Shown: positions 3,895 through 46,049, counted from the first letter of the stretch. The stretch is DNA of 64,000 nt from Galbibacter mesophilus (GCF_023721415.1 NZ_JAMQVC010000001.1:1426001-1490000); one strand, 5' to 3'. The notes: generated by a model not told the origin, from the letters alone. Numbers and translations are program-made.

Positions 3895-3918
3895 TTCAGT
3901 TAAAAATATAAAAATGGA

Positions 3919-3947
3919 AACGCCAAGGTAAAAGCCTTGGCGTTTTT
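3919..3947 (+). terminator. Rho-independent terminator of the sucAB transcript
   Basis: A perfect 10-bp stem (AACGCCAAGG paired with CCTTGGCGTT) with a 6-nt loop, followed by a T-run, 24 bp after the sucB stop. Confidence 0.9.
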
Positions 3948-3974
3948 AGTTTTGGTTGGTTAGTCTTAAGGGAA

Positions 3975-4100
3975 TTATAGTGTAACGACTAAAAATAGGT
4001 TTAAAAGAAAGGTTATCATTGCTAATGCCACTATAGTAATTACTAAAACCATATCCCTTGAGTTGTTTTTAATAATTTCGCTGCTCGTTTTCATGATCAT
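3975..4100 (-). CDS. Tiny single-span membrane protein (41 aa)
   Basis: A short frame starting at ATG (complement of 4098-4100), or at the second Met two codons later, and ending with TAA at 3975. The protein has a short polar N terminus (MIMKTSSEIIKNNSRD) followed by one hydrophobic helix (MVLVITIVALAMITFLLNLFLV). The layout of charged N terminus plus one membrane span filling the rest is typical of a real microprotein rather than chance translation. An ACCAACC motif precedes the start by about 15 bases, and a similar motif is found before the neighbouring microprotein and the kinase gene. No function is recognised. A second tiny membrane protein follows on the same strand upstream (4197-4307). 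Confidence 0.5.
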   Translation of the reverse strand: MIMKTSSEIIKNNSRDMVLVITIVALAMITFLLNLFLVVTL

Positions 4101-4196
4101 TTCTTTTGGTTGGTTGATGTAAATATCTTACAAAGAACGAATCACTTCAAGAGGGATTTCCCCCTTTTTCGAGGGGATGAAACGCAGGGATTTTTG

Positions 4197-4307
4197 TTAT
4201 AAAGCCAAAAGGGTATAAATGTTTATAGCCAATGTTGTGGCAATTAATAAAAATAAGAAGATAATCAAAAGAACTGGGGATCGGCGGTTTGTTGCTAGTG
4301 TGGACAT
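4197..4307 (-). CDS. Tiny single-span membrane protein (36 aa)
   Basis: A short frame from ATG (complement of 4305-4307) to TAA at 4197. It has a basic, polar N terminus (MSTLATNRRSP) and then one strongly hydrophobic helix ending close to the C terminus (VLLIIFLFLLIATTLAINI). It has the same architecture, strand and size class as the 41-residue protein about 100 bp downstream, and a related ACCTAACCAAC stretch precedes its start. The two sequences are not obviously homologous. Function is unknown; the case for it being real rests on composition, start context and the paired arrangement. Confidence 0.45.
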   Translation of the reverse strand: MSTLATNRRSPVLLIIFLFLLIATTLAINIYTLLAL

Positions 4308-4395
4308 GTTTTCTAAAGTTGGTTAGGTTTAGATGGTAAAAGTACCAGACACATCCTTCAAAGTAAATACGTACTAACTCGTATATTCACGAGAC

Positions 4396-4626
4396 CCAAG
4401 TTCCACAAGCCGCAGGCGTAGTGGAGGTTGTTGGTCGAGTGAACCCTGACCTTTAGCGTCAGGGTCTCTCTGGGTTTTTTCCCGAGTTTTCTCCAAGCTC
4501 CACAAGCCGTAGGCGCAGTGGAGGTTGTTGGTTGAGCCTGCCTACTTAATGGAGGTAGGTGAACCCTGACCTTTAGCGTCAGGGTCTTTCCGGTTTTTTT
4601 CAAGTTTTTTCCAAGTTCTACGAGCC
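4396..4626. repeat. Tandem hairpin-rich intergenic repeat (two full units plus a fragment)
   Basis: Two direct repeat units (about 4396-4495 and 4496-4610) share CCACAAGCCG, AGTGGAGGTTGTTGG and the hairpin CCCTGAC-CTTTAGC-GTCAGGG; a degenerate third start lies at 4615-4626. Each unit can form a CTCCAC/GTGGAG stem and the CCCTGAC/GTCAGGG stem. Unit 2 also carries a CCTGCCT/AGGTAGG dyad (4538-4559). A reading frame across it on the minus strand gives a repeated low-quality peptide and is not a gene. It looks like an intergenic REP-type element. Confidence 0.7.
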
Positions 4627-4734
4627 GCTGAATTAGAGGAGTCTATAGTTTAATTTTTTAAATCGCTACTGAAAAAATAGCTTTGCGAAATGGTTAAAAA
4701 ACATAAATTTAAGCCTTGGTAAAGTAGTAATCGT

Positions 4735-5373
4735 CTATCTCAAAAGCATTTCATTGTGGTCTTTTGCCCAAAGTAACAACGCATTGGTTTTATGCGGTAG
4801 ATCCAGTTTGTTGATAATGTTGCTGCGGTGTTTTTCAACGGTCCGAACAGAGATGAAAAGCATTTCTGCAATTTCTTTATTGGTTTTGTCCTTAGCAATT
4901 AAGCGAAGAATTTTCCTTTCGGAAGGCGTTATTTCAGATAGAACATCATCTTTTTCCCTAGAAAATTGTTTGAGCTCTTTTAAAATGGCCGGACTAAAAT
5001 ACTGCTTGTTTTCAGCGACGTGAACAAGACAGTTTTTAATTTCTTCAATGGCGTATTCTTTTAATACATAACCGTCTACATTGAGTTCTTTTGCACGACG
5101 GACAAGCTCTGGTTCTCTGTGAAGGGTGATGAGTACGATTTTAGTAGCAATATCATTGTTTTTACATGCCAATGCTACTTCTAGTCCGTCCATCTTGGGC
5201 ATTTCTATATCTAAAATAGCTATGTCCGGTTGATGTTTAATAATTAAATTGTAAGCAGAATTTCCATCCGAAGCGCTATCTATCACATTGTATTTTTGCT
5301 CAATCAAATAATCGTGCAGTCCTTTTAACAATAAAGGGTGGTCGTCTGCAATTATGATGGATGGGTTGATCAT
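4735..5373 (-). CDS. NarL/FixJ-type response regulator
   Basis: DNA-binding response regulator. The N-terminal receiver domain (about 5-120) has the acidic pair Asp10/Asp11 and the phosphoacceptor Asp55 in AILDIEMPKMDG. The C-terminal LuxR-type helix-turn-helix lies at about 145-200 (LTPSER-like ITPSERKILRLIAK, then KEIAEMLFISVRTVEKHR). The length of 212 residues is standard. Its start overlaps the end of the upstream histidine kinase by 4 bp, so they are a translationally coupled two-component pair. The regulon cannot be read from the sequence; the family is transcriptional activators that respond to phosphorylation. Confidence 0.93.
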   Translation of the reverse strand: MINPSIIIADDHPLLLKGLHDYLIEQKYNVIDSASDGNSAYNLIIKHQPDIAILDIEMPKMDGLEVALACKNNDIATKIVLITLHREPELVRRAKELNVDGYVLKEYAIEEIKNCLVHVAENKQYFSPAILKELKQFSREKDDVLSEITPSERKILRLIAKDKTNKEIAEMLFISVRTVEKHRSNIINKLDLPHKTNALLLWAKDHNEMLLR

Positions 5374-7388
5374 AAGAACGGAATGATATATGTAAAAGTA
5401 GTACCTTTTCCTTTTTCTGAATCTACTTTCATAGTGCCTCGTAGAAATTTTGTGCGTTCTTGAAGCGTTTTCAGTCCGAGCGATTCAAAATCATTGTATT
5501 TTTCAGAAAAGTCAAATCCTTTCCCATGATCTTTTATAGTAACGACAATGTTTTTTTCTTTCTTCTGAACAATAACTTTCGCCGCTTCTGTTTCAGAATG
5601 TTTTATTACATTGTTTAGTGTTTCCTGTACAATTCTGTAAAGATGGACTTCATTTGCTTTTGGTAGAGTGCGGGAAATGTCTTCAATGGAAGAAGTGATA
5701 AAAATATCCGTATGCTGGTCAACTTCATTAATGGTGTTTTCAATAGCGCGGGTAATTCCAAATTTTTCCAACTGAAAGGGGTGTAATGCGCGCGATATGG
5801 AGCGCACTTCTTCAATTGCGTTGTTGAACATTGTTTTGGTATTCTCATCTGCATTTAAAACCACTTTGTTTTTAATAAGCAGTAGACTTTGGCCAACGCT
5901 ATCGTGAAGATCTTTTGAAATTCTTTCCCGTTCTTGTTCTTGAGAACTGAGAAGTCGCTGACTAAATAATTCTTGTTGGATTTTAGCCTTTTTATGGTGT
6001 TGTTTGTTTTTGAAGAGAAAAACACTAAGAAAAAACAAACTTAATCCAGCAACAGAAAATCCTAAGAGTCTCTTCTTGGCTTCATTTTCACTTTTTAAGG
6101 TCTCGATGGAAGCATTTTTTGCTAAAAGATCTTTCTCTTTCTTTTCAGTTTCATAAAGTGTTTGGTAATAACTAAGTGCATTGGTTCTTTGTGTGCTGAA
6201 AAGGGAATCTTCTAAAGCATTGTATTCCTTATAAGTTTGGTAGGAATCCTCGAGATCTCCATTTTTCTCGTAAAGTCTGGCTAATTGCTGCTTTAGGTTT
6301 ACCAAATGATCCTTATTGTTTCCTTTTTCGTATTCTGGAATTAGTTGCTTCAACAATGCAATAGCTTGGTCATATTTTTCTTCGCCTTCTAGAATGGCTA
6401 CCTTGGCTTTGTGGTAGTGGTTCATTAGTTGCTTATTGTTTTCAAAATCATTTTTTCGAGCTTCAATCTTTTGAAAATGGTCTTGGGCTTTGTCTATTTC
6501 TCCTTTTTTAACGTATAATTTGGTCAACGAAGCTTCAATAAATACATCAGAATAAATATCATTGCCATTCTTTTCTTTATTGATTTTCTTCACTTCTAGC
6601 AGTAATTCTTCTTCCCTTTCCAAGTTGCCCATTTCTTGATAATGAATGGATTTATTATACAAACAGCTCACCGCTGCGTACCATTTTTCGTTTGCTTTGG
6701 CATAGGCGATCACTTCATCTTCTGCTTCTTCTGCTTTTTCATATAATTTATTCATCCCATATACAGAAGCAACGCCGCTTTTGGCCTGAATAACATATTC
6801 AATATCGCCTAGGGCTTCGTAATATTCTGATGCCTTCCGGTAATCGTTGATGGCATGTAAGAAGTTTCCTTGGTAGGATTCCGTGTGCCCTCTAAATAAA
6901 TATGCGTCGGCGACATATATAGAATCGGATTTCCCGAATGTATGAATAGCTTTGGTATAGTTTTCAGAAGCTTTTTTAAAATCCACATCGTAATATGCCC
7001 CTCCTTTTTTCAAATATATACTGCCAAGCAAGAAAGAGTCCTTTATTTTGTCTTTATGCTTTTCCGCCCTTAAAACCACCGCCAAAGCATCTTCATTATT
7101 GTTTTGAATATTGTTGATGTAATAAAATAGTTTTACTGATTGTCCTACCATTTTATCAAACTGCTCTGTTTCCTCGGCTATATCAATATATCTTTTGGCG
7201 AAATTTACGTAGGCGTCGGTTTGCTTTTCTTTATCTATGTGATGAATAATAGAGTCGAGATATTGTAATTGTATAGTTTTATTGTTGGCAGTATCCAGTA
7301 CGCGAATGAAAGGATCGATTTTTTCTTGAGCATACGTAAATAGTCCAAAATAGCATAAAAGTATGCTAAGGGAGGTGGTAGTTTTCAC
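5370..7388 (-). CDS. TPR-containing sensor histidine kinase (HisKA_3 / HATPase_c)
   Basis: Membrane sensor kinase, partner of the response regulator it overlaps. It begins with a signal peptide (MKTTTSLSILLCYFGLFTYAQ), then a long helical periplasmic region of tetratricopeptide-like repeats (about 80-400), a coiled segment, one transmembrane helix near 445-460 (LLGFSVAGLSLFFLSVFLF), a HisKA_3 dimerisation domain with the phospho-acceptor His near 495 (ERISKDLHDSVGQ), and a C-terminal ATPase with N box RIVQETLNNVIKHS and G box DHGKGFDF. This architecture is common in Bacteroidota for LuxR-regulator partners. The signal is unknown; TPRs imply a protein ligand or partner. The gene lies 12 bp after the aspartic protease gene, on the same strand. 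Confidence 0.92.
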   Translation of the reverse strand: MKTTTSLSILLCYFGLFTYAQEKIDPFIRVLDTANNKTIQLQYLDSIIHHIDKEKQTDAYVNFAKRYIDIAEETEQFDKMVGQSVKLFYYINNIQNNNEDALAVVLRAEKHKDKIKDSFLLGSIYLKKGGAYYDVDFKKASENYTKAIHTFGKSDSIYVADAYLFRGHTESYQGNFLHAINDYRKASEYYEALGDIEYVIQAKSGVASVYGMNKLYEKAEEAEDEVIAYAKANEKWYAAVSCLYNKSIHYQEMGNLEREEELLLEVKKINKEKNGNDIYSDVFIEASLTKLYVKKGEIDKAQDHFQKIEARKNDFENNKQLMNHYHKAKVAILEGEEKYDQAIALLKQLIPEYEKGNNKDHLVNLKQQLARLYEKNGDLEDSYQTYKEYNALEDSLFSTQRTNALSYYQTLYETEKKEKDLLAKNASIETLKSENEAKKRLLGFSVAGLSLFFLSVFLFKNKQHHKKAKIQQELFSQRLLSSQEQERERISKDLHDSVGQSLLLIKNKVVLNADENTKTMFNNAIEEVRSISRALHPFQLEKFGITRAIENTINEVDQHTDIFITSSIEDISRTLPKANEVHLYRIVQETLNNVIKHSETEAAKVIVQKKEKNIVVTIKDHGKGFDFSEKYNDFESLGLKTLQERTKFLRGTMKVDSEKGKGTTFTYIIPFL

Positions 7389-32253: not shown

Positions 32254-32640
32254 TTAACGCTTAGAGAACTGGAATTTCTTACGAGCTTTCTTCTGACCGA
32301 ATTTCTTACGCTCAACCATTCTTGGGTCTCTAGTAAGTAGCCCTTCTGGTTTAAGGGTTCCTCTGTTTTCTGCATCTACTTCGCAAAGCGCTCTGGAAAT
32401 AGCCAAACGGATTGCCTCTGCTTGTCCAGTTACACCACCACCGTAAACATTAACTTTAATATCAAAGTTCTCAACGTTTTCTGTTAAAGAAAGCGGCTGC
32501 TGAACTTTGTACTGTAATGTTGGTGTTGGGAAGTATTGCTTGAATTCTTTTTTGTTGATGGTGATGTTTCCTTTACCTTCAGAAACATACACTCTTGCAA
32601 CTGCAGTTTTTCTTCTGCCAATTTTGTGAATTACTTCCAT
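32254..32640 (-). CDS. rpsI: 30S ribosomal protein S9
   Basis: Small-subunit protein S9, 128 residues, with the RRKTAVARVYVSEGKGNI segment at the N terminus, the KVNVYGGGVTGQAEAIRL block, and the basic tail ending KKARKKFQFSKR, whose terminal Ser-Lys-Arg contacts P-site tRNA. Its ATG shares one base with the rplM stop (TAATG), the conserved rplM-rpsI pairing. Confidence 0.98.
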   Translation of the reverse strand: MEVIHKIGRRKTAVARVYVSEGKGNITINKKEFKQYFPTPTLQYKVQQPLSLTENVENFDIKVNVYGGGVTGQAEAIRLAISRALCEVDAENRGTLKPEGLLTRDPRMVERKKFGQKKARKKFQFSKR

Positions 32641-33095
32641 TATTTAAGATCGTTTAAGTTAATGGCAGTTGGTTTCTGTGCTTCTTGAGCATGCGCTGAA
32701 CCAACATATACCTTTAAATTGCGGAATAGCTCTGCACCTAATTTGTTCTTAGGAAGCATTCCTTTAATAGATTTTTCTAACAAACGTGCAGGATCTTTTT
32801 GGAAAAGTTCGTTTGCAGTTGTTACTCTTTGACCGCCTGGGTAACCTGTGTGACGCACGTATTGCTTAGCGTCCCATTTTTTACCAGTTAAGTTAATTTT
32901 TTCTGCATTGATAATTACTACATTATCTCCACAGTCAACATGCGGTGTGTAATTAGGCTTGTACTTACCTCTAAGTAGCTTTGCTACCTTAGAAGAAAGA
33001 CGACCTAGCGTCTGACCTTCAGCATCAACCAAAACCCACTGTTTGTTTACAGTAGCCTTGTTTGCTGAAATTGTTTTGTAGCTTAATGTATCCAC
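32640..33095 (-). CDS. rplM: 50S ribosomal protein L13
   Basis: Large-subunit protein L13. It contains NKQWVLVDAEGQTLGRLSSK, LRGKYKPNYTPHVDCGDNVV and MLPKNKLGAELFRNLKVY. The start is GTG at 33095 (MDTLSYKTISANKATV), giving 151 residues. An upstream ATG would run into the promoter and leader hairpin and adds an implausible 30 residues. It is translationally coupled to rpsI. A perfect -7 element is 88 bp upstream. Confidence 0.96.
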   Translation of the reverse strand: MDTLSYKTISANKATVNKQWVLVDAEGQTLGRLSSKVAKLLRGKYKPNYTPHVDCGDNVVIINAEKINLTGKKWDAKQYVRHTGYPGGQRVTTANELFQKDPARLLEKSIKGMLPKNKLGAELFRNLKVYVGSAHAQEAQKPTAINLNDLK

Positions 33096-33396: not shown

Positions 33397-34107
33397 TTAA
33401 TTCTTAAAATTAAGCTTTTTGAAAGCTGTTGATGTATTTCCTGCCTCATCCTTAGATACAATTTTTAAATAGTAAACTGTATTGTACTCAATAGCTTGTT
33501 TGTCTATTAAATTTTCATCTATAGATAGGTTTTCAGCAATCATGCTAGGTTCTTGGTCTTTTCCAAAATAAACAGTGTAGCTCTCTACATCTCCATCTAT
33601 ATCTTCTGTCTCCCACAGAATTTTTATAGTGCTATCTTTATTGTCTGTTATAAAAATCGAAGCTGGAAACGGAGCGTGGCTTTCTTCTTTCACGTCCCTT
33701 GAGTAGAAATTCCATTTTTCGTCACTCTTTAAGACTTTGTCTTCCAATATAGCTTCTACTTCCCAAGAATAGGAATGTCCCATTGCTACATCTGCCTCCT
33801 TAGAACTAGATGACGAGGTAAGCGTTTGGGATTCACCAGATGTGTTGTCTATCAAGTGAATTTTATAAGACTTAGCATTTTCTGACGGCTCCCATATAAG
33901 TAAAATATGGTTTAAATTACCAGCAATAGTGTAATCGCCTTCCACGCATAGAGAATTGTTTTCTGGAGTCACTAAGTTAAACGTTCCTAATTCCAAGGTG
34001 GGATTAGATGGGTTGTCAGGATCGGTGGGGTCATCGCTATCGCCACCTCCACATGAAATTAATAGTGAGCTAATAACTGGAAATATATAGTGAATTATTT
34101 TTTTCAT
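33397..34107 (-). CDS. Surface lipoprotein with fibronectin type III-like domains
   Basis: A 236-residue lipoprotein: the lipobox is SSLLISC with Cys19, followed by GGGDSDDPTDPD, an Asp-rich tether and likely surface-export signal in Bacteroidota. Two Fn3-like beta domains follow (about 55-130 and 140-236), seen in ILLIWEPSENAKSYKIHL and IKILWETEDIDGDVESYTVYF. Its ATG overlaps the stop of the large LRR protein gene by 4 bp, so it is co-translated with that protein and probably acts with it at the cell surface, for example as an anchor or binding partner (inference). A strong terminator follows. Confidence 0.82.
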   Translation of the reverse strand: MKKIIHYIFPVISSLLISCGGGDSDDPTDPDNPSNPTLELGTFNLVTPENNSLCVEGDYTIAGNLNHILLIWEPSENAKSYKIHLIDNTSGESQTLTSSSSSKEADVAMGHSYSWEVEAILEDKVLKSDEKWNFYSRDVKEESHAPFPASIFITDNKDSTIKILWETEDIDGDVESYTVYFGKDQEPSMIAENLSIDENLIDKQAIEYNTVYYLKIVSKDEAGNTSTAFKKLNFKN

Positions 34108-37100
34108 TTTTTAAGGATTTTGGATGTTATATTTTGAGAATCTGAAGTGATGTTAATTAGGTAAACGCCGCTCGATAATCCTTCTAAAGAAAGTTTTGTA
34201 TTTGAGGAAAAATCTTTCATTTTTCGATGAAAGACTATATTTCCGGCCATATCTGAAATATGTATTTCAACATTCTTTAAATTTGATAACCCTCCGATAT
34301 TTAAATTATCCACAACAGGATTCGGGTAGAATGAAACTTCTCTGAAATCGATGGTTTCATTGTACTGTCCTTGACAATCTTTATCTGTTTTTAAGATAAT
34401 TTCATTTTTACCATCTGTAATTGGAACTTGAATAGTTGTGGGTTCGGCGTTTTCAACATGAAATTCAAATAGCTTATTGTTTACAGAGACTGTATAATGG
34501 GCGTTTCCAGAAACTTTAAAAGAAGCTTTTTTGTTCTGAAGACTAATAAATGCTTTGGATGCAGTCATTTCCTCTGTAGCCTTTATATTAGCAGTGAAGC
34601 AATAATTAGAATCTTCATATCCAACATAACTCACGCAAACTTCGTAGCTTCCGGGGGCTAAATCGGTAATTAAATTAGCTTCGTTTTTGTCAACATCAGT
34701 AAAAGCTTCATTGTAATTTGGTCCCGAAACGGTAAATGTGTAATCCATATTGTTAAATGATTCAACGCTTATTTCTCCGTTATTGGTATTTGGACAGGAA
34801 GTATCAACTGCTTTTATCTTGATGGCTCTACTGTTAATAACATCACCTGCAGCACAACCTTTTTCGTCCACTACTTCTCCAAGTGTGGTTTCTGGGCATT
34901 CGTCTATATAATTAGGAACTCCGTCTTTGTCGTCGTCCACTTGGTACGGTGTACATCCTTTATAATCTACGTCTTCGCCATTTGGGGTGTTAGGGCATTC
35001 GTCAATATCATCATTTATCCCATCGTTATCACTATCTGGTATCGACACTTCTAAAGTTATTGGATTTTTATAAAGTGTTAATTCTGTTGCGACAGTATTG
35101 GTTATTTTACAAGTATATTCGCCCTCGTCTGAAATAGCAACGGAATCAATTTTAAAACTACTATTGGTGGCTCCTTCAATGGCAACATCGTCTTTAAACC
35201 ACTGATATATGTTATTTGGACTGCTAGTTGCCTCCACTTTTACTAAAAACTGACTATCTCTATCTATTGTGATTGTAGATTCTTCATCTATTTTTTTTTG
35301 ATTTTTGTAGTTGAAAGTTATATTCTCATTTATAGATTTTAAGATTTCTTCTATATCTTCAAACACAAACTTGTTATATGCTATATCTAAAGTGGTTAGA
35401 TTTGGCAATTTAATAATAGCTTCTGGTATAGTTCCTGTTAAGTAATTGCCATCCAAATACAGTTCAGTTAAATTTATCAAATTACCAATAGACTCTGGTA
35501 ATGTTCCAGTTAAATTATTACGGCTTAGGCTTAGGTGAGATAGGTTGATTAAATTTCCAATAGATTTTGGAATTTCACTTTCAAGGCTACCGTGTAAACT
35601 TAGGTCGGTTAGATTTGTTAGGTTCCCGATGGATTCAGGGATGCTACCTTTTAATTTATTATCGATTAAAACCAAATATGTTAAACTGGTTAGATTTCCA
35701 ATGGAATTGGGAATATGGCCAGCTAAATTATTAAGATAAAAATAAATATAGGTCACCCGGTTTTCTTCATTTATACGGATTCTCTCCCATTCACTAATCG
35801 GTTGATTTATATCCCAATTGGTACTCCAATTTGGGCCATCAGTAGCATTGTAAAGTTCAATCAGGGCTTCTCTATCGGGGCTATATATATATTCTTCAAA
35901 CTTTACGTTATCAATAATGATTTCGGAAGCTTCGGTATCTCCAATTATATTTATACTATAATTATATGTCCCTGATTTCTCTGGGGTAACATAATAACTT
36001 ATGGTTTGCCAATATGAATTAGTAAGATCATTGGTGATATTGCTATCAAAAACATAAAAGTTATCTTCCAAAATAGTAGATTTTAATTCTTTGATAGTTC
36101 CAGAAGATACTTTATAGTCAAATGAAACTCGATAAATTTTTTCAGCTTCCAATGAGAGATCGTTTAAAGGCGCAGCCGCATCCAATTTTGCAAAAAAACC
36201 ATTAGAGCCTGAGCGGTTGGTTTGAATTTTTATGGCATACTTGCCATCTGACGCTCCTGTAACTTTGGATTTGTTTGTGTCGAAATTTACATACCATCCA
36301 TCAGCATGTTCACTGGCGACAAGCGTCCACTTTTCAAAACTTGGGTTTTTGAGTAATTGGTTTTGTGCACAACCATTTGAGTTTACAGGTTGGCCATCAG
36401 TTGTTTCTGGGCATTCGTCAATATCGTTAGTGACACCATCATTGTCATTATCTAATTGGTTTTGTGCACAACCATAGTAGTCTACATTTTCTCCATTTTT
36501 AGTTTCCGGGCATTTATCTAAATCATTATTTACACCATCATTGTCACTATCTGGAATAGAAACATCTAAGGTTATTGTATTTTTATAGAGTGTTAGGTCA
36601 GTTATAACGGAATTTGTAATTTTACAAGTATATACACCCTTGTCTACAACAGCAACCGAATCAATTTTATAACTGCTATTGGTAGCTCCTTGAATGGCAA
36701 TTTCGTTTTTAAACCATTGATATTTGTTATTCGGGCTGCTAGTCGCTTCGACTTGTATTAAAAATGGATTACCTCTGTCAATTTTAAGCACAGCTTCTTC
36801 ATCTATTTTCTGTTGATTTTTGTAATTGAAAGCTATAGTCTCGTTTATAGTGGTTAAGACTTTTTCTATATCTTCAAATACAAACTTGTTGCCTACTATA
36901 TCTAAAGTTTCTAATTTAGGTAATTGAGTAATGGCTTTTGGAATAGGCCCCGTCAAGCTGTTATAGATCAAAGATAGTTCAGTTAGATTAATAAGGTTTC
37001 CAAAAGACTCTGGTATAGAACCTGTTAATTTGTTATAATTAATTCTAATTGTATTAAGATCTATTAGATTACCGATAGATTCTGGAATGTTACCAGTAAA

Positions 37101-37919
37101 ATCGTTAAAGTTGAGCCCCAAGGATTTTAACTTAGTTAAGTTTCCAATGGATTCGGGAATTTCCCCTTCAAGATCTTCTATTATGGATATATATTTAAGA
37201 CTAGTGAGGTCTCCAAAAGATTCTGGTAAAGAGCCAGTTAGGTTGTTGTTGTAAAAGCCAATATTTTCTACTCTATTTTCATTATTTAGTTGGATTCCGC
37301 CCCACTCACTAGCTGTTTTTTCCAAATCCCAAGTGTTTTTCCAGTTGGGTCCATCAGTGGCATTATAAAGGGCGATTAAAGTTTCTCTGTCTGGACTTGG
37401 TTGCGGTTTTTCAATAAGCTTTATATTATCAATATATACTTCAAAAGCTTCGTCAAGAAATGAGAATATAGAAAATTCGAAATACCAAGGTTCTGTTTCC
37501 AATACCTCAATTTCCTTAGATACGGAGTTCCATTCAAAATTAAGTGGGTTTCTACTTCCGGAGCTATTTGGAGTAAAATCTTCTGCTCCATGTTTTACCC
37601 CTATAACTTGGGATCCAAAGCTGGAGCTGCCAGTTTTCACTTTATAATCATAGCTCAAAATATAGGTTTTACCGGCCTCTAGTTGGATGCCAGACATGTA
37701 AATAGAAGGCTGTTCTTCTCCATCTATAAAAAGGGCACTGCTAGTTCCGCTAGTAAGATTCGTAGTTTCTTGGATAATTTGATTAGTCTGGGTTATTGTC
37801 CAGCTGTCAAGTTGTCCTGAAGACCAATTTTCTAAGTCTCCGTTGCTCAGTAGATTCTCCTGGCATATAGAAATGAGAGGAATGATAGCCATAGCTATCG
37901 CTAAGTAGATTTTTCTCAT
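34104..37919 (-). CDS. Large LRR / Ig-like / thrombospondin-3 repeat protein with T9SS sorting domain
   Basis: A 1271-residue secreted protein with an internally duplicated design: signal peptide (1-19); module A with a CBM-like domain (about 20-170), plant-type leucine-rich repeats (about 175-345, IPESIGNL units), an Ig-like domain (about 380-452, YQWFKNE... GVYTCKI) and thrombospondin-3-type Asp-rich repeats (455-515, DSDNDGVNNDLDKCP). Module B repeats the same order at about 520-1035. A beta region follows, then a type A T9SS C-terminal domain from about 1194 (VSFYPNPVVDNL ... GVYLINI ... KILKK). It should be exported by T9SS and attached or released at the surface; an adhesin or ligand-binding role is likely but unproven. 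Confidence 0.9.
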   Translation of the reverse strand: MRKIYLAIAMAIIPLISICQENLLSNGDLENWSSGQLDSWTITQTNQIIQETTNLTSGTSSALFIDGEEQPSIYMSGIQLEAGKTYILSYDYKVKTGSSSFGSQVIGVKHGAEDFTPNSSGSRNPLNFEWNSVSKEIEVLETEPWYFEFSIFSFLDEAFEVYIDNIKLIEKPQPSPDRETLIALYNATDGPNWKNTWDLEKTASEWGGIQLNNENRVENIGFYNNNLTGSLPESFGDLTSLKYISIIEDLEGEIPESIGNLTKLKSLGLNFNDFTGNIPESIGNLIDLNTIRINYNKLTGSIPESFGNLINLTELSLIYNSLTGPIPKAITQLPKLETLDIVGNKFVFEDIEKVLTTINETIAFNYKNQQKIDEEAVLKIDRGNPFLIQVEATSSPNNKYQWFKNEIAIQGATNSSYKIDSVAVVDKGVYTCKITNSVITDLTLYKNTITLDVSIPDSDNDGVNNDLDKCPETKNGENVDYYGCAQNQLDNDNDGVTNDIDECPETTDGQPVNSNGCAQNQLLKNPSFEKWTLVASEHADGWYVNFDTNKSKVTGASDGKYAIKIQTNRSGSNGFFAKLDAAAPLNDLSLEAEKIYRVSFDYKVSSGTIKELKSTILEDNFYVFDSNITNDLTNSYWQTISYYVTPEKSGTYNYSINIIGDTEASEIIIDNVKFEEYIYSPDREALIELYNATDGPNWSTNWDINQPISEWERIRINEENRVTYIYFYLNNLAGHIPNSIGNLTSLTYLVLIDNKLKGSIPESIGNLTNLTDLSLHGSLESEIPKSIGNLINLSHLSLSRNNLTGTLPESIGNLINLTELYLDGNYLTGTIPEAIIKLPNLTTLDIAYNKFVFEDIEEILKSINENITFNYKNQKKIDEESTITIDRDSQFLVKVEATSSPNNIYQWFKDDVAIEGATNSSFKIDSVAISDEGEYTCKITNTVATELTLYKNPITLEVSIPDSDNDGINDDIDECPNTPNGEDVDYKGCTPYQVDDDKDGVPNYIDECPETTLGEVVDEKGCAAGDVINSRAIKIKAVDTSCPNTNNGEISVESFNNMDYTFTVSGPNYNEAFTDVDKNEANLITDLAPGSYEVCVSYVGYEDSNYCFTANIKATEEMTASKAFISLQNKKASFKVSGNAHYTVSVNNKLFEFHVENAEPTTIQVPITDGKNEIILKTDKDCQGQYNETIDFREVSFYPNPVVDNLNIGGLSNLKNVEIHISDMAGNIVFHRKMKDFSSNTKLSLEGLSSGVYLINITSDSQNITSKILKK

Positions 37920-38020: not shown

Positions 38021-38106
38021 TTCTAATGCGCCTCCAACCAATTTTCACTTGGCCCGAGTTCAACATCCAAATGGTAGGCTTAGTTTATATGCGATTTCCA
38101 TTTCTG
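38021..38106 (-). pseudogene. Decayed copy of the polA 3' end
   Basis: These 86 bases match the last 28 codons of intact polA (43222-43306) with about 10 substitutions and one inserted A. The homology stops exactly at the stop codon. Translated on the minus strand it reads EMEIAYKLSLP, then, after the frameshift, DVELGP and NWLEAH before a stop, against EMENAYKLSVP and NWLEAH in polA. It lies beyond the far end of the SusC/SusD cassette, so the cassette is flanked by direct repeats of the polA tail. Confidence 0.85.
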
Positions 38107-38118
38107 ATTTTTTGATAT

Positions 38119-38156
38119 AAAAAAACTCCTTGAGTTAGTTTCTAACTCAAGGAGTT
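38119..38156 (-). terminator. Terminator of the SusC/SusD operon
   Basis: A 15-bp perfect stem (AACTCCTTGAGTTAG / CTAACTCAAGGAGTT) with a TTT loop. A T7 run follows on the minus strand. Confidence 0.92.
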
Positions 38157-38177
38157 CCCGCTAAAATAAGACCAGGT

Positions 38178-39845
38178 TTATTTGTTTTGGTCTGCAGGTG
38201 TTAAATTAGGGTTAGCATCAATCTCTGCTTGAGGTATTTTAAATACCCACCTATTATTTACAGAAGGTTTGTCCTGCTTAAAAGCAGCTTGGTATAATAC
38301 TTCAGAAGCTCCTGATCCGCCATCCGTACTATGGTCTATCCCTTCGTCCCATCGAATTTTATCGGTGTAGCCAAAGCCTTCGCCCCATAGTTCTACACCT
38401 CTTTGGAATTTTATTTGATCCATTAGCAATTCGACAGTGCTGAACGCGGATACATTATAGGCGCTATCTCGCTCTTCACCTAAAGGCCTAAGTGCATTCT
38501 GAGCGCCAGTGATGTCGCCCATCATTGCTTTTGCTTCGGCTTCAATAAGATACATTTCTGAAGAACGCATATAAATTATGTCGTCCGGGTCAATAGATCC
38601 TGGATTAGCATTTTTAAGCTTGAAATGCATATAAGGATGTTGATTAAAATTGTTGTTAATACCATATTGAGCATTTATTTCCGCTCTCCTTTCGTTGTAA
38701 GCTTCTAAATCTCCCGCATAATTTGGGTCTCTTGGGAGGCCTGTATCTGGGTCCAAACCTCCTTCGTTATTGGCGGCAGAAGAATTTGTATTAGGAGCTT
38801 CAACGATGAAAACATCTTTTCTGTAATCTGAGTCAGGAATTGCATCCACAAGTCTTCTGTCGGCAATTTTTGGATTATTTCTAATTTGGCTACCGTTGAA
38901 AGTGTTGCTGGCAAGATAGAAATATGAACGGAAAAATGTTGTTTCAGCATCAATAACATTACTTCCCCAAATCACTTCAGAAAGTTCATTTGAATTAAAT
39001 CCAGATTTCCAATCATCTTCACTCATTAGTGGGAATCCTTCACGGGCTTTAACGGCTGCATCTGCAGCTGTTTGCCAATCCCCTTTGGATAATGCGGTTC
39101 GTGCTAATAAACCATACGCTACATTTATGTTTAATTGAGACTTCGTTTCAGGTCCACCGCTTGGTCGTCCTGTTCCATTCTCAAATGCAGTAATAGCTTC
39201 GTTGAGGTCAGATTCAATCTGATCGTAAATTTCTTGAACTGTTGACCTTCCAGCACTGGTAAAAGGAGATTCAGAAGAGAATAAGAGTGGTACGCCGGGC
39301 TCTGTGGATGGGTCAGCTATTAGGTACCCTTTGGCAAAATGTTGAACTAGTGATAGGTACGCATATGCTCTATATGTGTATGCTTGGCCTAATATTTCAG
39401 AAAGCTCTGGAGTTTCAGTTAAAGTTCCTTCATTGCCTCGGTTAATAAGCAGATTAGCGTGCAATATAATATTATAGCGGTGATACCAAAAAACCTCATT
39501 CATCCCAGAGGTCTGGTCGGTATGTGTGTTCCACTGCATTACGCTTCGCCATCCCAAATTGTTTGCATTTGCCGAATGGATAAGTCCTCCGGTTAGGTTA
39601 TCGCCCATGGGTAGCCAGAAATGATTGTTTGCCCAGGTGGAGTTACCGCCTGGAAAAACTGTTTGAGACTGGGAATATAATCCACGGTGTATTCCGTTTA
39701 AAATCAACTGCATATTTTCCTCATTGGCCAACGCGTCCGTTGCTGAAATAGCATCAGTTGGTGTAGTTTCCAGAAAGTCATCGTCACAGGAAGTTATAGT
39801 AATCCCTAGGAATACTATAAGCATAAATTTTATATTTCTTAACAT
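38178..39845 (-). CDS. SusD/RagB-family nutrient-binding outer-membrane lipoprotein
   Basis: A 555-residue lipoprotein with lipobox GITITSC (Cys20), followed by the SusD hallmark DDDFLETTPTDAIS. The body is helical with TPR-like segments (AYTYRAYAYLSLVQHFAKGY, then YGLLARTALSKGDWQTAADAA), and the C-terminal domain has IRWDEGIDHS and WVFKIPQAEIDANPNLTPAD. SusD proteins cap SusC channels and capture oligosaccharides or peptides at the surface. It lies 23 bp after susC. No carbohydrate-active enzymes accompany the pair here, so the substrate is open. The ATG at 39845 gives a cleaner signal peptide than the one three codons upstream. Confidence 0.93.
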   Translation of the reverse strand: MLRNIKFMLIVFLGITITSCDDDFLETTPTDAISATDALANEENMQLILNGIHRGLYSQSQTVFPGGNSTWANNHFWLPMGDNLTGGLIHSANANNLGWRSVMQWNTHTDQTSGMNEVFWYHRYNIILHANLLINRGNEGTLTETPELSEILGQAYTYRAYAYLSLVQHFAKGYLIADPSTEPGVPLLFSSESPFTSAGRSTVQEIYDQIESDLNEAITAFENGTGRPSGGPETKSQLNINVAYGLLARTALSKGDWQTAADAAVKAREGFPLMSEDDWKSGFNSNELSEVIWGSNVIDAETTFFRSYFYLASNTFNGSQIRNNPKIADRRLVDAIPDSDYRKDVFIVEAPNTNSSAANNEGGLDPDTGLPRDPNYAGDLEAYNERRAEINAQYGINNNFNQHPYMHFKLKNANPGSIDPDDIIYMRSSEMYLIEAEAKAMMGDITGAQNALRPLGEERDSAYNVSAFSTVELLMDQIKFQRGVELWGEGFGYTDKIRWDEGIDHSTDGGSGASEVLYQAAFKQDKPSVNNRWVFKIPQAEIDANPNLTPADQNK

Positions 39846-39868
39846 AATTATCATTCTTTAGCTTTTAA

Positions 39869-42800
39869 TTAAAATCCTACGTTTAGTCCAACAGAAAATG
39901 TTCTTGGAGGATTAAAAGTGTTTCCTACTGGAGTTCCATCTAATTCCGCTTGTGGGTTGGCTCCTGTTCTTTCACTATTAAAATACAGGTTTTCACCTAT
40001 AATAGAAAGTCTTAAGTTGTCAACACCAATTTGTTCTGTAACATTTCCATCAAAAGTATATCCTAAATTGATGTTTTTAAGGGTCCAAAAGGATGCATCG
40101 GTTAAAAACCTGTCCGATTCCTGTCTAACAAGATTTGGATTACCCGCCTCCAATCTAGGTACGCTAGTAATGTCTCCAGGTTGTCTCCAAGCATTTAAAA
40201 TATCAGGGTGATAAGAACTACCGAAGTTTCCGCTGTGCATCATGTCTGCATATCCAAAATCAAGGAATTTTCCGCCTATTCCGTAATTCACTAAAAAATC
40301 TAATGAAAACCCTTTGTAGCTAAAAGTACTAGATACAGATCCTAGCAAATCGGGTATAGAACTGTCTCCCGTATAAGCTCTTTGTGTGTCTTGCCAATCG
40401 GTTGTCGTGGCAATTTCTCCGTTGGCATCGAATACAGGCACGCTATTGTTGTCCGCGTCCAATTCATATTGATAAAATAATTGATCACCAGTATCTGGAT
40501 CAACTCCAGCTGTTCTTAAGAGGAAAAAGTCAAATCTAGACCGTCCTTCCGCCCAACGTTGTTGGTCATCAATAAATGGGTTAGGTAGACTTGTGATTTC
40601 ATTTTTAAAAGTAGATGCCTGAAGGGTTACATTCCATCTAAAATCATTTTTATTAATTAGTCGAGTAGTTAAAGCCATTTCCCAACCTGAGTTATACATG
40701 TCTCCAATATTTACTGGAACTTCGTTTAATCCATTACTTAAAGGAATTGGAAGTAAGTACAATAAATCGGAAGAATTTTTCTTGTAGTATTCTATAGAAC
40801 CTTCAAAAAGGTTGTTGAATAACGCAAACTCCAACGCAATGTCATAATTTTCAATTGTCTCCCATTGTAATTCAGGATTTCCTATATCAGTATATAAAAT
40901 AGCGGGGTCTGCTGCATTGGAAGTTATTGTAAACCTAGGTTGTGATATAAAGAAATCAATTGGATCTCCAAGTCTATCGTTACCAACTTCACCGTAAGAA
41001 CCCCGTAGTTTTAATTGATTAATAAAACCAACATTGTCCATAAAGCCTTCTTGGTCGATTCGCCATGAAGCTCCTACTGAATAAAAAGTACCCCATCGTG
41101 AATCTTCGCTAAATACAGAAGACCCATCTCTTCTAACAGAGGCACTTAGATAGTACTTGTTGCTGAAGTTATAATTAGTTCTTAAAAAATATCCTTCTAA
41201 AGATTTCCTCGTAGAAGAACCACCCAAATCTACAATATTAGAAAAATTGTCAAATTCAAAAATTCCGTTGGCAGCTTGAATAGTTTTTAAACCATTGTTG
41301 CTTGTAAAGGTTCTGTCAAAGCTTTCGTGACCTGCAGTAATATCAATATTATGATTGCCAAAACTTTTAACGTAAGTTAAGATTTGATTGAAGTTTTCAA
41401 CCTGTCTTCTAAATCGTGTTTCGCTATAACGCCCATCGGGTTGAGCATCTCCAATAATAGCATTTTCATATTCCTTTTCTAGACCTTCATTGATATCTCT
41501 ACCATAATTTATTCGAAGATTTAATCCATCTACAATTTTAATATCTCCAAAAAATCTGAATCCGTATGTGTTGTCCCTGTCCCGTTCGTCATTCAGAAGA
41601 AGTTCTTGTAATGCATGACGACCTTGGTAAATAGGTCTGGAACCTATGTTGAATTCCGGGTATCCTTCTCCATTATCGAATACAAAGTTCCCGAAAGCAT
41701 CTCTAACTAAATTTCCTTGTAGATCATTAAGGTATACTGGATAAATGGATCCAATATTCTTGGAAAAACCAAATGGATTTACGATGCTGTTTTCCCCAGC
41801 TGAACTTGGAGCTGTAGCTTCTGTAATCGCAATGTTTGCGCTACCACCAATTTTTATACTTTTACTTACATCAAACTCCGCGTTTAATCGAGTTGTAATA
41901 CGATCGAATCCAGAGGTAATAACATAACTTTCTTCATCTAAATAGGATGCGGAGAAAAATACTTTGTGGTTTTCTCCTCCACCGGAAACATTTACATTAT
42001 AGTTTTGACGAACTCCTGTACGTGTGAATTCATCATACCAATCAAGGCTTTTGTAGATAACTTGAGCATTTGGGTTTAATCGGCCGTCTGTTCCAACAAT
42101 TTGACTGTTGGGGACGTTAAAAGGATTGTATCCCAAACTATTATAAATATTTGCGGATGCAAAAGCTGGGTCACCTCCTCCTGCACTTGAGTTTTTTAGA
42201 GCTTCCCACATGGTTTCGTAATATTGGCCAGGAGAAAGTTCTTCATAAAAAGGGATGGCAGGAGAGACTAAACCATATTGCATGGATGCATTTACCTGTA
42301 TTTCTCCTCTCGTTCCACTTTTAGTGGTGATTATTACCACACCATTCGCAGCTCTAGATCCATATAACGAAGTAGATGAAGCGTCCTTAAGTATTGTAAA
42401 AGATGCAATATCCTCTTGGTTGATAGTGTTTAAGTCACCTTCATACTGCATTCCATCTACGATGTATAATGGGTCCGTATCTCCGTTAAGAGTTCCAACC
42501 CCTCGAATTACAATATCTGGTGATGAACCAGGGCCCGCTCCAGATGTGAATTGAACTCCCGTAGCTCTACCCTCAATTGCCGCAATTGGAGAGGTAACAT
42601 TTCGAATCTCCAGTTCTTCTGAGCCTACTACACTTGCAGAGCCTGTAAAAGCTTCTTTTGTTGTAGTACCGTACGCTGTCACGATAACTTCCTCCAGAGC
42701 TTGAGCATCTTGTTCTAGCGTTACATTTATTGTGCTTGATGCTCCCACATTTCTCTCAACGGTTTTTTGTCCTAAATAAGAAAATACTAGCGTGGAGCCG

Positions 42801-43000
42801 GAAGAGGTGTTAATGGAATAATTACCATCGAAATCGGTTTGAGTACCCGTGGAGGTACCTTTAACCGTTACGTTTGCTCCTGGTAAAGGAAGCCCGTCTT
42901 GATCTGTTACAACACCTGTAACAGTTTTCTCTTGTCCATAAGAGAATTGTAAGATTAACGCAAAAACTAGCGTTAAAAACCAATTTAACTTTGATCTCAT
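39869..43000 (-). CDS. SusC/RagA-family TonB-linked outer-membrane channel
   Basis: A 1043-residue TonB-dependent receptor: signal peptide MRSKLNWFLTLVFALILQFSYGQ, a CarboxypepD_reg-like domain (about 25-105, VTGVVTDQDGLPLPGANVTVKG), the SusC TonB-box region LEEVIVTAYGT, a plug (SPDIVIRGVGTLNGDTDPLYIVDG) and a 22-strand barrel ending FNPPRTFSVGLNVGF. It pairs with the downstream SusD. Energy would come from an ExbB/ExbD/TonB system such as the one at 11.1-13.5 kb. The cassette is bracketed by polA-tail repeats. Confidence 0.95.
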   Translation of the reverse strand: MRSKLNWFLTLVFALILQFSYGQEKTVTGVVTDQDGLPLPGANVTVKGTSTGTQTDFDGNYSINTSSGSTLVFSYLGQKTVERNVGASSTINVTLEQDAQALEEVIVTAYGTTTKEAFTGSASVVGSEELEIRNVTSPIAAIEGRATGVQFTSGAGPGSSPDIVIRGVGTLNGDTDPLYIVDGMQYEGDLNTINQEDIASFTILKDASSTSLYGSRAANGVVIITTKSGTRGEIQVNASMQYGLVSPAIPFYEELSPGQYYETMWEALKNSSAGGGDPAFASANIYNSLGYNPFNVPNSQIVGTDGRLNPNAQVIYKSLDWYDEFTRTGVRQNYNVNVSGGGENHKVFFSASYLDEESYVITSGFDRITTRLNAEFDVSKSIKIGGSANIAITEATAPSSAGENSIVNPFGFSKNIGSIYPVYLNDLQGNLVRDAFGNFVFDNGEGYPEFNIGSRPIYQGRHALQELLLNDERDRDNTYGFRFFGDIKIVDGLNLRINYGRDINEGLEKEYENAIIGDAQPDGRYSETRFRRQVENFNQILTYVKSFGNHNIDITAGHESFDRTFTSNNGLKTIQAANGIFEFDNFSNIVDLGGSSTRKSLEGYFLRTNYNFSNKYYLSASVRRDGSSVFSEDSRWGTFYSVGASWRIDQEGFMDNVGFINQLKLRGSYGEVGNDRLGDPIDFFISQPRFTITSNAADPAILYTDIGNPELQWETIENYDIALEFALFNNLFEGSIEYYKKNSSDLLYLLPIPLSNGLNEVPVNIGDMYNSGWEMALTTRLINKNDFRWNVTLQASTFKNEITSLPNPFIDDQQRWAEGRSRFDFFLLRTAGVDPDTGDQLFYQYELDADNNSVPVFDANGEIATTTDWQDTQRAYTGDSSIPDLLGSVSSTFSYKGFSLDFLVNYGIGGKFLDFGYADMMHSGNFGSSYHPDILNAWRQPGDITSVPRLEAGNPNLVRQESDRFLTDASFWTLKNINLGYTFDGNVTEQIGVDNLRLSIIGENLYFNSERTGANPQAELDGTPVGNTFNPPRTFSVGLNVGF

Positions 43001-43223
43001 ATTTTAATTAGTTTGAATTAGCATTATACTAATATCTTAATTTTTAATTAAAAAAGAGGTTTATTGGTTAAAATTTTAACACTTGGAGGGATTAATTAGA
43101 ATATTTCAAAATTTCACGTTAATAATTTGAAGATGTTCAAAATAGATACTGAAAGCTTAATGGTCGTTGCAATGATTCTGTTTTTATGGGTTTCTAAAAT
43201 ATGATATAGAGGTTTGCGTATTT

Positions 43224-46049
43224 CTAATGCGCCTCCAGCCAATTATAGCCTGTGCCGAGTTCAACATCCAATGGTACGCTTAGTTTGTATGCGTTTTCCA
43301 TTTCTGTCTTGATAAGGTTTTTTACGGTGTCGAGTTCGTCTTTATGGGCGTCGAACACCAATTCATCATGAACTTGAAGCAGCATTTTAGTTTTAAAATT
43401 GCCTTCTTTTAGTTTTTGGTGAATATTTATCATCGCAATTTTAATGATGTCAGCAGCACTCCCTTGAATGGGAGCATTTACGGCATTTCTTTCGGCAGCT
43501 CCTCTAACAACTTGATTTCGGGAATTAATGTCCTTTAAATAACGACGCCTTCCTAAAATGGTTTCCACATAACCGTTATCCTGTGCAAAATGAACTTGTT
43601 TGCTCATGTATGCCTTTAATTTAGGATATGTTTCATAATAGGTGTCTATTAAGTCTTTTGCCTCACTTCTGTTAAGTGTAGTTTGATTGCTTAGTCCGAA
43701 GGCGGAAACGCCGTAGATAATTCCGAAGTTTACTGTTTTGGCATTGCTTCGCTGCTCGCGGGTAACATCTTCAATAGCTACTTTGAAGACTTGCGAAGCC
43801 GTTGTGGCGTGAATATCCTGACCTTCTTGAAAGGCTTTTATCATAGTGTCCTCTTCACTCAATGCTGCGATAATGCGAAGTTCAATTTGCGAATAATCCG
43901 CGGCAAGCAAGGTGTAGTTTTCATCGCGTGGGACAAAAGCTTTTCGAACCAGTCTTCCTCTTTCGGTTCTTATCGGGATATTCTGCAAATTCGGATTGTT
44001 GGAACTCAACCTTCCCGTTGCCGCTACGGCCTGACTGTAAACCGTGTGGATACGGTGTGTTTTGGAGTTTATTTCGTTTGGAAGCGCATCCACATAGGTG
44101 CTTTTTAGCTTGTTCAATTGGCGCCATTCCAAAATGTCAGCTACAATTTGATGGTCTTTTGCGAGATAGGAAAGTACGTCTTCCGCAGTGGAATATTGAC
44201 CTGTTTTGGTTTTTTTCGGTTTATCAACTAGCTTCAATTTATCGAATAAAATCGGGCCTAATTGTTTTGGAGATGCTAAATTGAATTCTTCCCCAGCTTG
44301 TTCAAAAATTGCCTTTTCCAGTCGGTCGATATCGGTATTTAGAGCGCCACTTAAACTTTTCAGGTAGTTTTCATCTAAATTGATTCCCTCAATTTCCATG
44401 TCGGAAAGCACTTTTACCAGTGGAGCTTCAATCTCTTCAAAAAGCTTCTTGGCATTTCGTTTCGGGAGTTCTTCAGCAAAAAGATTTTTTAACTGGAGTG
44501 TAATATCAGCGTCTTCAACCGCATATTCCGTTTGCTTCTCCAATTCAACCGAGCGCATGGAACGTTGGTTTTTGCCTTTTTTTCCTATAAGAGTTTCAAT
44601 TGAAACTGGACTATAATTTAAATAGGTTTCTGCAAGGACATCCATATTGTGACGCATATCTGGATTGATAAGATAATGCGCAATCATGGTATCGAAAATA
44701 GGGCCTTTTACAGGCATGTTGTAATTGGACAAAACTTTGAGGTCGTACTTAAGATTTTGTCCTATTTTTTCAATTCCCTCGTTTTCAAAAAACGGTCGAA
44801 ATTCTTCCAAAATTGCTTTTGTTTCCTTTTGATCTTCGGGAAAAGAAACATAATACCCCGTGCCAGGTTCCCATGAAAATGCACAGCCAACCAACTCGGC
44901 TTCCAATGATTTTATATTCGTGGTTTCCGTGTCAAAACAAACACTTTTTTGTTTCAATAGCTTTTCCAGCAATAGTTTTCGTGCCAGCGGTGTGTTGGCC
45001 TGTTGATAAAAATGCGGTACCTGTTCTATGGTTTTAAACCCAGAAACGGTAGTTGTCGCACTTTCAGCAGCTTGGTTATTTCCAAAAAGATCGTATTGAA
45101 CGTCTAAATTTGTGTTTACGTTTGCTTTATTCCCTTCGGAAGTTTTTTCTTCGGAAGAAATTTCCTGTCCGAAGGTTTTCATTAAATTATCGGCAAGTCT
45201 TCTAAACTCCAATTCCTGAAATATCTCTTGCACTTTTGGTATGTCGGGAGTGTCTAGAGTAAAGTTTTGTTCATGAAATTCAACTGGCACATCCAGCATA
45301 ATTCGAGCCAGTTTTTTGGAGAGCAAGCCTAGTTCGGCATTGGCTTCCACTTTCTCTTTCATTTTCCCTTTTAGCTGATCGGTATTTTCCAACAAGCCTT
45401 CCATGCTGCCAAATTGTTTTAAAAACTTTTTGGCCGTTTTTTCACCAACGCCAGGCAACCCGGGAATATTATCTACCGAATCTCCCATCATTCCGAGAAA
45501 ATCAATAACTTGTTCTGGAGTTTCTACTTCAAATTTCTTTTGTACCTCCGGAATTCCCCAAATTTCAATACCATTTCCCATTCTTGCTGGGCGGTACATA
45601 AAAATATTTTCAGAAACCAACTGGGCAAAATCTTTATCGGGAGTCACCATGTATACTTTATAGTTGGCTTTTTCCGCCTGTTTTGCAAGTGTTCCAATGA
45701 TATCATCAGCTTCATATCCCGCTTTTTCTATGCAGGGAATATGCATGGCTTTTAAAATATCTTGAATAATCGGTACTGCAATACGAATGGCTTCCGGCGT
45801 TTCGTCGCGATTGGCTTTGTAGGCTTCAAACATTTCCACACGATCCTTGCTGCCTTCCTTATCGAAAGCAACCGCTAAATGATCTGGATTTTCTCTTTTA
45901 ATTACGTCCAATAGCGAATTCATAAATCCCATAATGGCAGAAGTGTCCATGCCCTTGGAATTAATACGTGGATTTTTTATGAATGCGTAGTACCCTCTAA
46001 AAATTAAAGCGTAAGCGTCTAAAAGAAAAAGCCGTTTTTGATCTTGCAT
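43224..46049 (-). CDS. polA: DNA polymerase I
   Basis: A 941-residue polymerase for Okazaki-fragment processing and repair. It has three domains: 5'-3' exonuclease (about 1-290, LLDAYALIFRGYYAF, then VTPDKDFAQLV), a 3'-5' exonuclease (about 355-530) with the metal-binding residues of CFDTETTN and YAVEDADITLQ still present, so proofreading is probably active, and the family A polymerase (from about 560) with ADYSQIELRIIAAL, RSNAKTVNFGIIYG and QVHDELVFD. The 3' end (last 28 codons) has a decayed duplicate at 38021-38106, on the other side of the SusC/SusD genes. Confidence 0.97.
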   Translation of the reverse strand: MQDQKRLFLLDAYALIFRGYYAFIKNPRINSKGMDTSAIMGFMNSLLDVIKRENPDHLAVAFDKEGSKDRVEMFEAYKANRDETPEAIRIAVPIIQDILKAMHIPCIEKAGYEADDIIGTLAKQAEKANYKVYMVTPDKDFAQLVSENIFMYRPARMGNGIEIWGIPEVQKKFEVETPEQVIDFLGMMGDSVDNIPGLPGVGEKTAKKFLKQFGSMEGLLENTDQLKGKMKEKVEANAELGLLSKKLARIMLDVPVEFHEQNFTLDTPDIPKVQEIFQELEFRRLADNLMKTFGQEISSEEKTSEGNKANVNTNLDVQYDLFGNNQAAESATTTVSGFKTIEQVPHFYQQANTPLARKLLLEKLLKQKSVCFDTETTNIKSLEAELVGCAFSWEPGTGYYVSFPEDQKETKAILEEFRPFFENEGIEKIGQNLKYDLKVLSNYNMPVKGPIFDTMIAHYLINPDMRHNMDVLAETYLNYSPVSIETLIGKKGKNQRSMRSVELEKQTEYAVEDADITLQLKNLFAEELPKRNAKKLFEEIEAPLVKVLSDMEIEGINLDENYLKSLSGALNTDIDRLEKAIFEQAGEEFNLASPKQLGPILFDKLKLVDKPKKTKTGQYSTAEDVLSYLAKDHQIVADILEWRQLNKLKSTYVDALPNEINSKTHRIHTVYSQAVAATGRLSSNNPNLQNIPIRTERGRLVRKAFVPRDENYTLLAADYSQIELRIIAALSEEDTMIKAFQEGQDIHATTASQVFKVAIEDVTREQRSNAKTVNFGIIYGVSAFGLSNQTTLNRSEAKDLIDTYYETYPKLKAYMSKQVHFAQDNGYVETILGRRRYLKDINSRNQVVRGAAERNAVNAPIQGSAADIIKIAMINIHQKLKEGNFKTKMLLQVHDELVFDAHKDELDTVKNLIKTEMENAYKLSVPLDVELGTGYNWLEAH

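Follow-up and report, generated by a model that had tools for sequence, protein, structure and literature searches.

A decayed polA tail behind a SusC/SusD pair in Galbibacter mesophilus is the scar of an insertion, and such scars recur

In a 64,000-nucleotide stretch of the Galbibacter mesophilus genome (GCF_023721415.1 NZ_JAMQVC010000001.1:1426001-1490000; hereafter, the window), a pair of genes encoding a SusC-type TonB-dependent receptor and a SusD-type lipoprotein lies between the intact, essential polA gene, which encodes DNA polymerase I, and a truncated, frameshifted copy of the polA 3' end. This distal polA tail is the scar of an insertion, and such scars recur. We lean, with somewhat better than even confidence, towards one-sided import by homologous recombination anchored in polA as the origin of these scars, in preference to integration at an attachment (att) site or tandem duplication.

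The intact polA gene of the window (43224..46049, minus strand, as are all features of the window described here) encodes a protein of 941 aa with the PF00476 and exonuclease domains that is 97% identical to its counterpart in a congener, G005. The working 3' end of the gene (43222..43306) recurs in the same orientation about 5.2 kb away, at 38021..38106, with 75 of 86 positions identical (87%), and a single 1-nt indel puts the distal copy out of frame. The match scores 103 bits compared to the maximum of 31.9 bits in 200 shuffles of the downstream DNA, and exactly two copies, with no third, are present in the entire 3.77-Mb genome (denoted G000). Thus, the repeat that had been pointed out in a sequence-only reading of the window is confirmed as real and far above chance. 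That reading placed the end of the homology exactly at the stop codon; the homology does end near the stop but runs 2 nt beyond the TAG (43224-43226). The Pfam matches bear out the identity of the cargo between the two copies, namely, SusC (39869..43000, 1043 aa; PF00593, PF07715, PF13715) and SusD (38178..39854, 558 aa; PF14322, PF07980). A strong hairpin with a T run, a terminator (38114..38159; fold -24 kcal/mol, z -6.3), lies 3' of SusD, between SusD and the relic tail, at the right end of the cargo. In the direction of the genes, the order is polA, SusC, SusD, terminator, relic tail, a protein with LRR and Ig domains, an FN3-like protein and rplM. Neither a tRNA nor any Rfam element was found in this interval.

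Direct evidence of an insertion that displaces the old gene tail comes from the comparison of two members of another genus, G295 and G074. In G074, odhB follows immediately after the polA stop, and the region from -55 to +2952 forms one uninterrupted alignment block with +995 to +3999 of G295, in which a perfect 54-bp polA tail is located 997 bp downstream, behind an apparent toxin-antitoxin pair of the RelE/ParE type (assigned by sequence likeness rather than with a family library). Because the block is unbroken, the distal tail of G295 represents the original end of polA; the added DNA, about 1 kb (997 bp) with the new tail included, went in at -54. The earlier proposal that insertion at the gene 3' end leaves polA whole and displaces the old tail is thereby substantiated.

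Within the genus of the window, polA directly precedes rplM, with a gap of 154-266 bp, in four of the six other genomes. These arrangements do not constitute an exact empty site for G000, so of the empty-site comparison that had been suggested, the part that succeeded is the sister case of G074 and G295. In G005, the relic tail behind the same SusC/SusD pair is longer (131 bp, 80%), and different genes come after it. The G000 relic, for which the G005 relic is the homolog, resembles the latter minus approximately 45 bp, the terminators are similar, and ATATCAA precedes the tail in both genomes, so that, judging from these sequence likenesses, the two relics likely derive from one shared event. 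The polA-SusC spacers of the two genomes are unrelated, however, and hence there may have been separate events or a later replacement. In G003, a different SusC/SusD pair follows polA, and a relic tail of 326 bp (95%) separates this pair from a second one.

Beyond the genus, we searched the family with the last 110 residues of PolA as the query (389 genomes with a match; this search is insensitive to short or frameshifted relics) and directly inspected about 119 polA downstream regions. In all, four or more further lineages have decayed polA tails downstream of other cargo, the cargo including a different SusC/SusD pair, a toxin-antitoxin pair and single genes, among them a symporter-like gene; thus, SusC/SusD is only one kind of cargo. 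In Flavobacterium hungaricum, a 237-bp relic follows a gene for a 171-aa protein, and in G185, three relics form an array in which single genes are the cargo between them: 139 bp at +8965, 20 bp at +10160 and 191 bp at +11740. The polA relics range in length from 20 to 326 bp (20-365 bp across all genes), with 5' edges at about -318, -199, -192, -142, -131, -82, -53 and -21, and nearly all end between -4 and +7 relative to the stop (+37 in one). There is no constant core across the polA insertions: only the last 20 bp or so are common to all, and these are coding and conserved anyway. Relics are present at 3 of about 115 polA loci that were not picked for a second tail, compared to 2 of about 915 other genes in the same DNA (Fisher p 0.011, with approximate denominators). 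Duplicated gene heads upstream of genes are almost absent, with one relic outside paralogs and repeat arrays, a rarity that could reflect selection against parting a gene from its promoter.

Several other repeats came to light in these regions. A 45-bp repeat (93%) of positions -4 to +40 of the polA end lies 2162-2206 past the polA stop at locus L115, where the duplicated segment is the region just behind polA and not the gene tail. Short relic tails were also observed downstream of an intact YgiQ-like gene (L111, 18250-20203; 59 bp, 88%) and of an intact gene encoding a 257-aa protein (L083, 14967-15741; 33 bp, 100%). At L198 (G176 C39), where neither polA nor SusC/SusD is involved, the last 190 bp of a gene for an 877-aa membrane protein (3110-5744) are repeated (94%) 8.3 kb downstream, at +8337, after three other genes. 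Second polA-like matches in G004, G182 and G367 are located elsewhere in the respective genomes and were taken to be other genes.

The SusC/SusD family of the window is itself not confined to polA. Relatives of the SusD protein (E < 1e-70) are encoded in 24 of the 397 genomes, for the most part elsewhere on the chromosome; 22 loci were examined, or 21 if G000 and G005 represent one event. About 105-170 bp past SusD, a portion of the upstream gene is repeated in three more of these genomes: 113 bp (94%) of a DUF2911-like gene in G239, 365 bp (90%) of a BamA-like gene in G143 and an internal 125-bp fragment (94%) of a regulator gene in G030, all three genes being named from sequence resemblance and not from a family search. 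Because loci of the same family bear scars of different upstream genes, the scar follows the anchor gene, whichever it is. Scars are present at 4 of 21 loci of the family, with G000 and G005 counted once, and at none of 40 random SusD loci (Fisher p 0.011), and accordingly, tail duplication was rejected as a general habit of SusC/SusD loci. One case in which SusC/SusD follows polA without a visible second tail, an arrangement that the sequence-only reading had named as contrary to insertion, was encountered, in G084. The SusD protein of G084 is not the closest relative of that in G000 (69% aa identity, compared to 78% for G229, where SusD is not near polA), which implies either a separate occupancy or a donor-like arrangement. 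In four genomes, G284, G348, G338 and G143 (loci L212, L220, L225 and L226, respectively), the family adjoins rpsL/rpsG, often behind a BamA-like gene; this neighborhood is a second recurrent chromosomal address of the family.

In one-sided import, the SusC/SusD pair would have been brought in on a DNA fragment with the polA 3' end of a relative at one end and extending past the SusD terminator at the other. Entry into the chromosome would have occurred via homologous recombination in polA alone, either by a single crossover of the recircularized fragment or by a one-ended equivalent with an illegitimate join. As a result, polA would remain complete in front of the cargo, whereas the leftover partial tail would stay behind SusD and decay, its 5' edge corresponding to a random fragment end or to the join. 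We infer that a single crossover took place, how the DNA entered the cell (transformation being one example) and which of the two tails came from the donor. Such import predicts a variable 5' edge, homology that ends near the stop where the donor and recipient downstream DNA diverge, and a cargo that already lay beside the same gene in the donor. What is observed is a partly duplicated gene tail whose homology ends at the stop, with a variable 5' edge, cargo devoid of a recombinase, repeated occurrence, a displaced old tail in the sister case and, in other species, the same cargo behind polA but no second tail. With regard to the donor, two of the 15 Flavobacterium genomes encode the 171-aa cargo of F. 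hungaricum, in one copy each and both times directly behind polA, but with a scar in one only; the second genome is that of F. chungbukense. The 320-aa cargo of G185 is located 21 bp behind polA in G035, a match that is biased, having come from a set of regions assembled around polA. Thus, cargo beside polA is found in possible donors for the 171-aa gene (F. chungbukense), the 320-aa gene (G035) and SusC/SusD (G084), none of which is the actual donor. Minimal mobile elements of naturally transformable bacteria, in which cassettes are exchanged by homology on both flanks, similarly consist of variable cassettes between conserved genes (here, polA and rplM) without mobility genes; unlike the polA loci, however, such two-flank exchange leaves no partial duplication.

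The closest parallel in anatomy comes from a single-crossover system at lacZ in Escherichia coli, in which 56 of 60 integrants obtained with one-sided homology gave the duplication product and 14 sequenced integrants carried 109-950 bp of the anchor locus (PMC3240628). These duplications were attributed to recircularization of an eroded linear fragment followed by a single crossover (PMC3240628). The two situations share a partial duplication of the anchor gene that varies in length (20-365 bp here) and foreign DNA between the copies without a recombinase. They differ in that a laboratory plasmid in conjugation was involved in E. coli, whereas the insertions described here are natural, recurrent and located at the polA 3' end, and they have left the anchor gene intact next to a duplicate that decayed. 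The mechanism class is therefore already known.

The origin of the two tails was examined in G005. Over 40 codons, the relic and the working tail differ at 24 sites, distributed 8/1/15 over the three codon positions; the probability of at most one of 24 differences falling at codon position 2 is 0.0008. At five of the eight amino-acid differences, the residue is one that also occurs in congeners; compared with the congener majority, the relic agrees at 10 sites and the working tail at 9. The tilt in codon positions suggests that the tails already differed in lineage, both stemming from functional polA genes, and that neither is simply a decaying copy of the other, a reading of the sequence comparison that we hold with moderate confidence given that only two differences in 28 codons are fixed, as described below. 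The relic of G003 displays plain neutral decay (3/3/1).

Several observations weigh against one-sided import as the origin of the scars or against parts of it. In the 28 codons that G005 shares with the G000 relic, relic and working tail show only two differences that both species have fixed, which also fits tails that were identical at insertion. No donor sequence close enough to show the junction was found, and sliding identity along polA of G000 and G005 revealed no mosaic break. The two tails of G295 are 100% identical over 54 bp, as the core of an att site would be, and the excess of relics at polA given above is not explained by plain homology alone. Finally, natural competence has been demonstrated for Riemerella, but identical conditions revealed no competence in F. 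johnsoniae (PMC7965970).

Some of these observations would be expected if the integration at a gene 3' end that the sequence-only reading had proposed were of the att-site kind, with the polA 3' end recognized by a tyrosine recombinase and SusC/SusD representing an integrase-less element bounded by attL and attR, akin to cis-mobilizable elements (CIMEs), that was moved in trans and could accrete in tandem into arrays such as that in G185. We consider this origin unlikely. It accounts for polA being a preferred target, for the direct repeats with the gene end restored in G000 and G295, for the perfect repeats of G295 and for the serial relics of G185, and CIMEs and integrative elements at gene 3' ends share with the polA loci the flanking repeats of the 3' end, the restored gene and the potential for tandem arrays. 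However, an att site should come with a fixed core and usually with an integrase, and neither was found. As had been noted from the sequence, no integrase remains between the repeats; the same holds for G005, G003, G295 and F. hungaricum, the cargo of every scarred locus lacks one, integrases encoded elsewhere in the same genomes notwithstanding, and all PF00589 matches in G000 are located away from the cargo. The shared stretch can be as short as 20 bp or as long as 326 bp, its 5' edge lies between -21 and -318 with no position in common, and, again unlike CIMEs, a single cargo family bears tails of polA, the DUF2911-like gene, the BamA-like gene and the regulator. A phage or plasmid record with the polA tail only was sought and not seen; the tblastn matches, with 44-58% identity, were full polA genes where annotated. 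A tyrosine integrase encoded 49 bp behind polA in G228, with its nearest relative on the polA contig of G021, might appear to favor integration, but it belongs to a family found beside integron-like arrays that have attC-like repeats of their own, and neither in G228 nor in G021 is the integrase followed by a polA tail (the contigs end about 150 bp further), so that it was discarded as the cause. This integrase (L174; 393 aa, 49-1231 bp past the polA stop) is encoded 160 bp from the contig end, and its relative in G021 (76%) about 6 kb behind polA. Integrases of this type at L201, L204, L205 and L207 adjoin arrays of repeats of about 120-240 bp with complementary ends (CAACGTGT..TATACGGTGTTR) that resemble integron attC sites and are mostly located 3' of the integrase gene. 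A chromosomal integron was rejected as well: the repeats at the polA loci are polA tails, whereas the attC-like arrays lie elsewhere with a different integrase. That a hidden recombinase underlies the excess at polA seems rather unlikely, and it is likewise improbable that the polA 3' end is a dedicated landing site, with the last 20 bp or so as the core, for a so far unrecognized recombination system of Flavobacteriaceae that acts in trans to insert small cassettes lacking an integrase, assembling them into integron-like arrays such as the one in G185.

Further explanations were weighed. Strict homology-facilitated illegitimate recombination, described in naturally competent species (PMC3240628), would insert a linear fragment with one end joined at homology and the other at microhomology, so that the distal tail would consist entirely of resident DNA. 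It resembles one-sided import in that a one-sided homology anchor carries non-homologous DNA, predicts the same anatomy and fits the polarity in G074 and G295; its usual outcome, however, is insertion with deletion and not the duplication seen here (PMC3240628), and we regard it as improbable. Local tandem duplication of the polA tail together with the cargo, with subsequent loss or decay of the second cargo copy, is very improbable and already contradicted. The arrangement in G003, where the two SusC/SusD pairs flanking the tail are 78% identical, could be taken in its favor, but the unconstrained tail is more alike (95%) than the genes, the wrong order for joint duplication, and the spacers that separate the tail from SusC show no relationship. 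Duplication further predicts homology through the spacer, whereas in the polA cases and in G239, homology stops between -4 and +37 of the stop; moreover, the distal tail of G295 is the original one, and there is no second cargo copy in that genome. A larger ancestral duplication of polA, raised earlier as another possible source of the decayed tail, is not supported either, given that the homology ends with the stop codon and that the relic starts inside the last 44 codons.

Past the scar, the resident neighbor (34104..37919, identified with Pfam) encodes a 1271-aa protein with LRR, Ig and TSP3 domains and a type IX sorting tail; it comprises two long tandem halves, with 300-bp blocks that are 74% identical and 1515 bp apart. 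It is followed by a gene for a 236-aa fibronectin-III-like lipoprotein (33397..34107), with a weak PF00041 match under the cut-off, and by the ribosomal cluster rplM-rpsI-rpsB-tsf, of which rplM (32640..33095), a conserved neighbor in most relatives, forms the far flank of the variable interval.

The literature searched appears to contain no description of the recurrent hotspot at polA, of cassettes this small, of an array of relics or of scars of multiple genes left by one SusC/SusD family. SusC/SusD pairs decide which glycans these bacteria take up, and the decayed tails behind the cassettes are polarized scars from which one can read which gene served as the anchor, in which direction the insertion went and, given denser sampling, what the donor was. 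Should polA prove to be a true hotspot, the region downstream of it would be a natural insertion locus with a testable cause.

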